Below the pieces are notes generated by a model. The model saw only the letters and a list, made by a program, of their open reading frames with translations, was not told where the DNA came from and ran no database searches. From the NCBI GenBank assembly GCA_007859745.1, contig SMLU01000001.1, forward strand, positions 744,001 to 808,000: a DNA stretch of 64,000 nt, written 5' to 3'. The position numbers and the translations under genes were made by a program. The stretch's first letter is position 1. Each line of letters starts with the position of its first letter. Source of the stretch: Phycisphaerae bacterium RAS1. Its GTDB lineage: Bacteria > Planctomycetota > Phycisphaerae > UBA1845 > Fen-1342. Below, piece by piece: positions 1 to 54,157 of this stretch.

Positions 1-110
1 CTGGGTATCAGCTCCGCCTGCACGCCGAGCTCCGCCTTGATTTCATCCGCCAAACTGGCGGCCTTGGGGAAATAGTTTCACTGCGTGCAGTAGGTGATGG
101 AAATCTTCAT
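1..110 (-). CDS. SelW/Rdx-family selenoprotein, C-terminal part beyond window edge
   Basis: From an ATG at 110 the frame reads MKISITYCTQ, then UGA at 80-78, then NYFPKAASLADEIKAELG, and stays open to base 1. Bacterial Rdx (SelT/SelW/SelH) thioredoxin-like redox proteins have CxxC or CxxU exactly here, and Cys forms read YCTQC. The UGA is therefore best read as selenocysteine in a CTQU motif. A hairpin of SECIS type follows (41-72), and selA lies at 52.6 kb in this window. A GGAG at 120-123 (9 nt before ATG) lies in the loop of a small hairpin, GACTG-TTGGAG-CAGTC. The exact substrate is unknown; the family does thiol redox work. Ordinary gene calling would miss it because of the UGA. Confidence 0.85.
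41..72 (-). promoter_or_regulatory. Putative bacterial SECIS element
   Basis: On the minus strand, 16 nt after the UGA (80-78), a perfect 6-bp stem CCGCCA/TGGCGG with loop GTT is seen (61-47). It is extended by an outer TTTC/GAAA pairing (72-69 with 44-41). Bacterial SECIS hairpins lie just downstream of the UGA inside the coding sequence, with a G at the start of the loop; the loop G here is 23 nt after the UGA. Function is inferred from position and shape. Confidence 0.65.
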
Positions 111-52484: not shown

Positions 52485-52594
52485 AGGCTTCCTTGCGGCC
52501 CCGCTCCGGACGCGGGAGTGAAGCTTCGGCTCGCACTCCCCAACCGTCCGCACCCAACCGACGGAAACGGGATGGGTGGAGATTGTGCGGTATC

Positions 52595-54157
52595 ATGACG
52601 CCCATGTCATCTCCTGCGCCCGATGCCGCGGCACGAAATCCGCTGCGCGATCTGCCCTCCGTGGACCAGCTCCTGCGCCACGCCGCCATTGCGACGCTGC
52701 TCGAGGAATTCCCACGCCACGAAGTGCTCACCGCGGTGCGAAATGTGATTGACGCCCGCCGTGCGGCGATTCAATCCGGCCGGCCGGCGGCGATCGACTC
52801 CGCCGCCCTGGCGCTCGGCGTGCGGGAGGAGATCTACCGCCGGGCGACGCCCAGTTTGCGGCGCGTCATCAACGCGACCGGCATCGTGCTCCACACCGGC
52901 CTGGGCCGGGCGCCGCTGGCGGCCGAGGCGGTCGCCGCGGTCGCGGAAGTCGCCGGGGGATACTGCAATCTCGAACTGGACCTCGCGACCGGCCGGCGCG
53001 GCGACCGGCACGAGCACTGCCGTGAGCTGCTGCGCGAGCTGACCGGCGCGGAGGACGCTCTGGTGGTGAACAACAACGCCGCCGCGACGTTTCTGGCGCT
53101 GCACGCCCTGGCGGGCGGCCGCGAGGCGATCGTCTCACGCGGCCAACTGGTCGAAATCGGCGGCTCCTACCGCATGCCCGACATTATGGCCGCCGCGGGT
53201 TGCCGCATGGTCGAGGTGGGCACGACCAACCGCACGCGCATCGGCGACTACGAGAAGGCGCTGACGCCGGAGACGGCGGTCCTGCTGCGCGTGCATGCGA
53301 GCAACTACCGGATCGAGGGCTTCGTGGAAAGCGCGTCGCTGGAGCAGCTCGCGGCGCTGGGGCGATCGCGCAGCCTCGTGGTCATCGACGACCTCGGCAG
53401 CGGCCTGATCGACCAGGCCGACGCGCTCCACGCCGATTCACGCCGCGCGCAGCCGGCGGTTCACTTCATCGGCGGCTTGCTCGATAACGGCACGGACGCC
53501 GACCAGGAAGCCACGGAGCGCGACGCGCCGCCGGTCGAATCCGGCCGCAGCACGGCCGCGGACTGGGACGAGCCGACCGTGAAGGGCAGCGTCGCCGGCG
53601 GGGCCGATATCACGCTCTTCTCTGGCGACAAGCTTTTGGGCGGGCCGCAGGCGGGCGTCGCGGTCGGCCGGGCCGAGCTGATCGCCCGCATGCGGCGCGA
53701 CCCGCTGATGCGCACGTTCCGGCCCGACAAGATGACGCTGGCCGCGCTCGAGGCGACGCTGAGGCTTTATCGCGATCCGGCCACGCTGGCGCAGCGCTGC
53801 CCGACGCTGCGCATGCTGCTGGCGCCTCCCGAGTCGCTCCAGCCGCTCGCAATGCGCCTGGCGGAGTTGACGCGCCGCAGCCTCCCCGATGCGACTGTTG
53901 ACGTTCTGGAGGATCGTTCCTATGCCGGCGGCGGATCGCTGCCGACGCTGGCGCTGCCGACCTGGGTGGTGCGCGTGCGCGTCGAAGGCGTCGCCGCGGC
54001 CGGCCTCGCTGCGGCTTTGCGCCGCGGCGATTCGCCCGTGGCGTGCCGCGTCCGCGACGAGTCGCTGCTGCTTGACTGCCGGACGCTGTCGGAGCCGGAG
54101 CTGTCGATCGTCGCGGCGGCGCTGGCCGAGTCTGTGCGTGAGGGGCTGTCTGAATGA
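52595..54157 (+). CDS. selA: L-seryl-tRNA(Sec) selenium transferase
   Basis: 520 aa from an ATG at 52595 (52604 is an alternative). LPSVDQLLRHAAIATLLEEF, INATGIVLHTGLGRAPLA, CNLELDLATGRRGDRHEHCR, VVNNNAAATFLAL and the PLP lysine in FSGDKLLGGPQAG are SelA signatures. It turns seryl-tRNA(Sec) into selenocysteyl-tRNA(Sec) with selenophosphate. It is longer than usual: between DDLGSGLIDQ and VAGGADITLFSGDK there are about 40 extra residues rich in Ala, Asp and Glu. selB, selC and selD are not adjacent. It agrees with the UGA-containing SelW gene at 1-110. The next gene overlaps by 4 bp (ATGA). Confidence 0.92.
   Translation: MTPMSSPAPDAAARNPLRDLPSVDQLLRHAAIATLLEEFPRHEVLTAVRNVIDARRAAIQSGRPAAIDSAALALGVREEIYRRATPSLRRVINATGIVLHTGLGRAPLAAEAVAAVAEVAGGYCNLELDLATGRRGDRHEHCRELLRELTGAEDALVVNNNAAATFLALHALAGGREAIVSRGQLVEIGGSYRMPDIMAAAGCRMVEVGTTNRTRIGDYEKALTPETAVLLRVHASNYRIEGFVESASLEQLAALGRSRSLVVIDDLGSGLIDQADALHADSRRAQPAVHFIGGLLDNGTDADQEATERDAPPVESGRSTAADWDEPTVKGSVAGGADITLFSGDKLLGGPQAGVAVGRAELIARMRRDPLMRTFRPDKMTLAALEATLRLYRDPATLAQRCPTLRMLLAPPESLQPLAMRLAELTRRSLPDATVDVLEDRSYAGGGSLPTLALPTWVVRVRVEGVAAAGLAAALRRGDSPVACRVRDESLLLDCRTLSEPELSIVAAALAESVREGLSE

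Follow-up and report, generated by a model that had tools for sequence, protein, structure and literature searches.

A SelW-like (Rdx) gene of Phycisphaerae bacterium RAS1 with an in-frame UGA predicted to encode selenocysteine

Is the in-frame UGA at the active site of a small Rdx gene of the planctomycete Phycisphaerae bacterium RAS1 a stop, or is it a codon for selenocysteine (Sec)? The question arises at the very edge of the stretch of 64,000 nucleotides that was analysed (the window, 744001-808000 of G000:C1 in the assembly), whose base 1 falls inside the gene. A sequence-only reading had proposed a selenoprotein of the SelW/Rdx family, with UGA where CxxC has its second Cys and a SECIS-like hairpin behind it, and all the checks that it had suggested came out in its favour. 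In this work we describe the structure of the gene, its homology, the conservation of its TGA and of its hairpin, and the full set of Sec machinery genes of this genome. We are close to certain that the gene encodes a SelW-like (Rdx) selenoprotein, in which a hairpin read by SelB would insert Sec11 and so give a CxxU site with a redox role shared with Cys8.

The reading frame through the UGA

The minus-strand frame opens at base 110 with ATG AAG ATT, reaches TGC ACG CAG TGA AAC TAT TTC, and its translation begins MKISITYCTQ-UGA-NYFPKAASLADEIKAELGVQAELIPS. A break in the frame to the left of the window, which would have spoken against a gene open on both sides of the UGA, was looked for; the 124 further bases keep the frame open to a TAG, and the frame as a whole has no other internal stop but the TGA. 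The complete product has 77 aa (MKISITYCTQUNYFPKAASLADEIKAELGVQAELIPSGGGIFDVKANGKLIFSKHEVGRFPEDDEVLGKLEAMKRPK), with the CxxU motif near its N terminus (C8-T-Q-U11) aligned with the CxxC or CxxU of its relatives and U at the second Cys of CxxC. It matches the Pfam Rdx family PF10262 (5.5e-19, 68.6 bits; cut-off 22.6), and a whole-genome search found Rdx over the cut-off at this locus only. From the homology to solved Rdx chains, we infer a thioredoxin-like fold. The coordinates of the features are collected in Table 1.

Table 1. Positions of selW, its elements and the other genes discussed (window positions unless a contig or locus is given)
Feature	Position	Strand	Remarks
selW/Rdx gene, 5' part	1..110	(-)	36 codons + 2 nt; ATG 110..108
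selW/Rdx, whole gene	G000:C1 743877-744110		remaining codons and TAG stop left of the window
In-frame UGA, predicted Sec11 of CxxU (CTQU)	78..80	(-)	tca on the + strand
Bacterial SECIS-like hairpin	47..61	(-)	arms 61..56 / 52..47; loop 55..53 (GUU)
selA, selenocysteine synthase	52595..54157	(+)	NCBIfam TIGR00474, 533 bits; Pfam PF03841, PF12390
selD	L016 1480-2530; G000:C2 about 159516-160570		in-frame TGA
AhpC-TSA/TlpA-like gene L172	G000:C5:261-602		in-frame TGA
AhpC-TSA/TlpA-like gene L173	G000:C1:1616643-1616996		in-frame TGA
NAD-dependent epimerase	L004 8924-9829		just left of the window

The epimerase gene begins about 50 bases past the selW stop, and in a gene-neighbourhood test on 7 same-family relatives it adjoins selW in 3. 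None of the cytochrome genes was found beside selW in this test, which speaks against any conserved operon of selW and the cytochromes.

A TGA near a Cys codon, with the frame open on both sides, means little in itself. Such an arrangement occurs at 124 places, at modest lengths, in this GC-rich window, and the criterion is therefore weak alone and meaningless without homology. With so many TGA-interrupted frames arising by chance, and with a lone TGA in a short gene resembling a nonsense change, the TGA could be taken as a true stop, left by a pseudogene or by a sequencing error in a former Cys-type Rdx gene. Conservation refutes this, and we assign it a negligible probability. Rdx was found in 34 of the 198 genomes of the class, and each of the 36 copies has a single internal TGA; in the phylum, Rdx was present in 143 of 392 sampled genomes, with one TGA in all but 11 of the matches listed. 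The protein is conserved on both sides of the TGA among these relatives, and the genome holds the whole Sec machinery (see below). With the single SelW protein as query, the named close relatives, from Phycisphaerae and other planctomycete metagenome genomes, have 66-74% identity and the same TGA; matches in Rhizobiales and Actinomycetota fall to 33-43% identity, and the one alphaproteobacterial example that was read has Cys at the Sec position. The survey shows that SelW in Planctomycetota is overwhelmingly a Sec protein. The internal UGA of selW is almost certainly a selenocysteine codon and not a stop, since homology to Rdx extends through the TGA, dozens of relatives share it, and the hairpin that follows is conserved and covaries.

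The hairpin past the UGA

Folding recovered the stem that the sequence-only reading had pointed out, CCGCCA-GUU-UGGCGG, with 6 bp, a loop starting with G, a spacer of 16 nt after the UGA and a folding energy of -9.9 kcal/mol. It is, as a bacterial SECIS would be, a stem-loop inside the coding sequence shortly past the UGA, with a small apical loop and a G near its start. A search of the selW region against Rfam gave no family match, which is no argument against a bacterial SECIS.

Taken as a single sequence, the hairpin is weak by itself and not significant (P ~0.09): when its 14 codons are recoded synonymously, a stem of equal length at a permitted position arises in 8.7% of the recodings, and in 25% the fold is as stable or more so. 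Given this and the frequency of TGA codons near Cys, it is homology, conservation and machinery that carry the case. The 8.7% also leaves room for the view that codon choice in an Ala-rich helix produced the hairpin by accident and that some other element directs Sec insertion. We consider this very unlikely, in view of how the hairpin behaves across relatives. In a set of 24 selected distinct Sec sequences, 97.9% of the hairpin cells are paired, against 86.1% in shuffles, and three pairs have changed on both sides, one of them appearing in four types (CG 15, GC 4, UA 3, AU 2); these changes are compensatory. The covariation score is 0.455, against a shuffled mean of 0.202, and none of 500 shuffles reaches it; control hairpins slid along the alignment fall apart and score far lower. 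The loop is marked by rare codons that are nearly fixed: Gly is encoded there by GGT in 24 of 24 cases, against 32 of 282 (11%) elsewhere in the same genes, and Ser by AGT in 19 of 23, against 5 of 190 (3%). Under a fixed rule, a stem of at least 5 is present in 49 of 49 Sec forms, where about 56% would be expected by synonymous recoding with the codon usage of this window, and in 1 of 4 Cys forms; the sequences behind these counts are related and so are not independent events. These counts exclude one Cys-type locus, L071, which proved to have been taken in a wrong frame.

The loops AGUUU and GGUCU both retain GU, and a similar GU is found in the SECIS loop of E. coli fdhF. Judged from these alignments, the conserved hairpin is a putative SECIS of the ordinary bacterial kind, which would be read by SelB.

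Selenocysteine machinery and further genes with an in-frame TGA

The presence of selA in the window had been taken as a sign that Sec is used here, and a genome search for selB, selC and selD had been proposed. The selA gene was verified and the other three were found, so that selA, selB, selC (tRNA-Sec) and selD, the bacterial Sec-decoding trait, are all in the genome. The tRNA-Sec scores 67.8 bits with the Rfam model and is confirmed by ARAGORN, with anticodon tca; a second match to the model (C2:137673) is a tRNA-Ser by ARAGORN. The selB gene scores 322 bits over two segments and selD 380 bits. For selA an ATG start, chosen from the translation, is likely, the ORF tool giving an upstream TTG at 52493. 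SelA has an apparent insertion of roughly 40 residues just ahead of its SGDKLLGGPQAG motif, and its match to the family models is split into two segments.

Three further genes carry an in-frame TGA. That of selD gives CAGU (...YASCAGUAGK), and SelD is likely to be a selenoprotein itself; within the order, almost every selD gene likewise has one TGA. In the two AhpC-TSA/TlpA-like genes, the redox motif has TGA in place of its first Cys (UxxC), as WATW-U-PPC in L172 and WGFW-U-GGC in L173, and their thioredoxin/peroxiredoxin-like products are probably further selenoproteins. With SelW, this makes at least four likely selenoproteins in the genome.

As the decoding of UGA is deduced here, the codon might stand for a residue other than Sec, with a suppressor supplying Trp or Cys or with UGA recoded. 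We give this almost no credence: the genome has a tRNA-Sec(UCA) with selA, selB and selD, in SelW, SelD and the two thioredoxin-like proteins the UGA marks a catalytic redox position, and a SelB-type hairpin is conserved in the Sec forms. Within the class, selB is present in 34 of the 34 genomes with Rdx, against 69 of 198 overall (hypergeometric P 3e-19, uncorrected for shared ancestry), and selD in 33 of these 34.

A genome search for formate dehydrogenase gave only matches below the cut-off, which lack a TGA, and hence no Sec formate dehydrogenase. With this in mind, we tentatively raise the possibility that SelW of Planctomycetota was ancestrally a Sec protein and is almost obligatorily so, and that the Sec machinery may be kept in the order by the demand for SelW, for SelD and for a small number of thioredoxin-like proteins with UxxC.

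Proposed function and relation to known SelW proteins

For the SelW-like selenoprotein, we propose that SelB carrying Sec-tRNA(Sec) would recognise the hairpin just past the UGA, a predicted binding, and that the Sec inserted as residue 11 would complete a CxxU active site in a small thioredoxin-fold protein. Together with Cys8, the selenolate probably serves as a small thiol redox partner, and exchange may proceed via a selenenyl-sulfide or by a glutathione/thioredoxin-linked route. Sec insertion in RAS1 is deduced from the genome; both the redox role and the identity of the partner we infer from the family, for which an interaction with glutathione has been cited (PMC1088965).

With these results, a phylum in which few selenoproteins have been described gains a well-supported one, from a kind of gene, containing UGA, that standard gene callers tend to miss or truncate. 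To the sequence-only reading, descriptions of planctomycete selenoproteins had seemed rare. This stands in part: some were described in 2016 (PMC4807772), and most of the Rdx genes that we found in the phylum carry UGA. The biology itself is known, the family since 2005-2006 and planctomycete selenoproteins since at least 2016. Among selenoprotein families, the bacterial SelW-like proteins ranked first in abundance both in the Sargasso Sea (PMC1088965) and in the Global Ocean Sampling data, with 427 Sec against 56 Cys forms in the latter (PMC2398784), and Sec-using bacteria have been noted to have almost no Cys forms of them (PMC1794560).

Mammalian selenoprotein W (PDB 2npb) is homologous to the RAS1 protein (profile search, 1.8e-7), but its SECIS, as in other eukaryotic SelW, lies in the 3'-UTR (PMC1088965). 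The Cys-form Rdx protein Atu0228 (2fa8) is also homologous (profile search, 1.8e-17), with Cys at the Sec position. The planctomycetes P1 and P2 from Porphyra have, according to the main text of their description, the full set of Sec insertion genes and several selenoproteins, as here, and that main text makes no mention of SelW (PMC4807772). Compared by description, SelW of Campylobacter jejuni (CJnc60; PMC11955535, PMC4607533), which belongs to another phylum, is likewise small (80 aa) and was also missed in annotation, and read-through of its UGA has been seen by Ribo-seq and mass spectrometry (PMC11955535). The closest parallel is with the bacterial SelW-like family (Rdx; PMC1088965, PMC1794560, PMC2398784), listed in a 2022 review as pfam10262 with CxxU (PMC9312934): RAS1 SelW is of the same family, with the same CxxU and a SECIS-like hairpin just past the UGA, and differs only in the organism, a member of the Planctomycetota.
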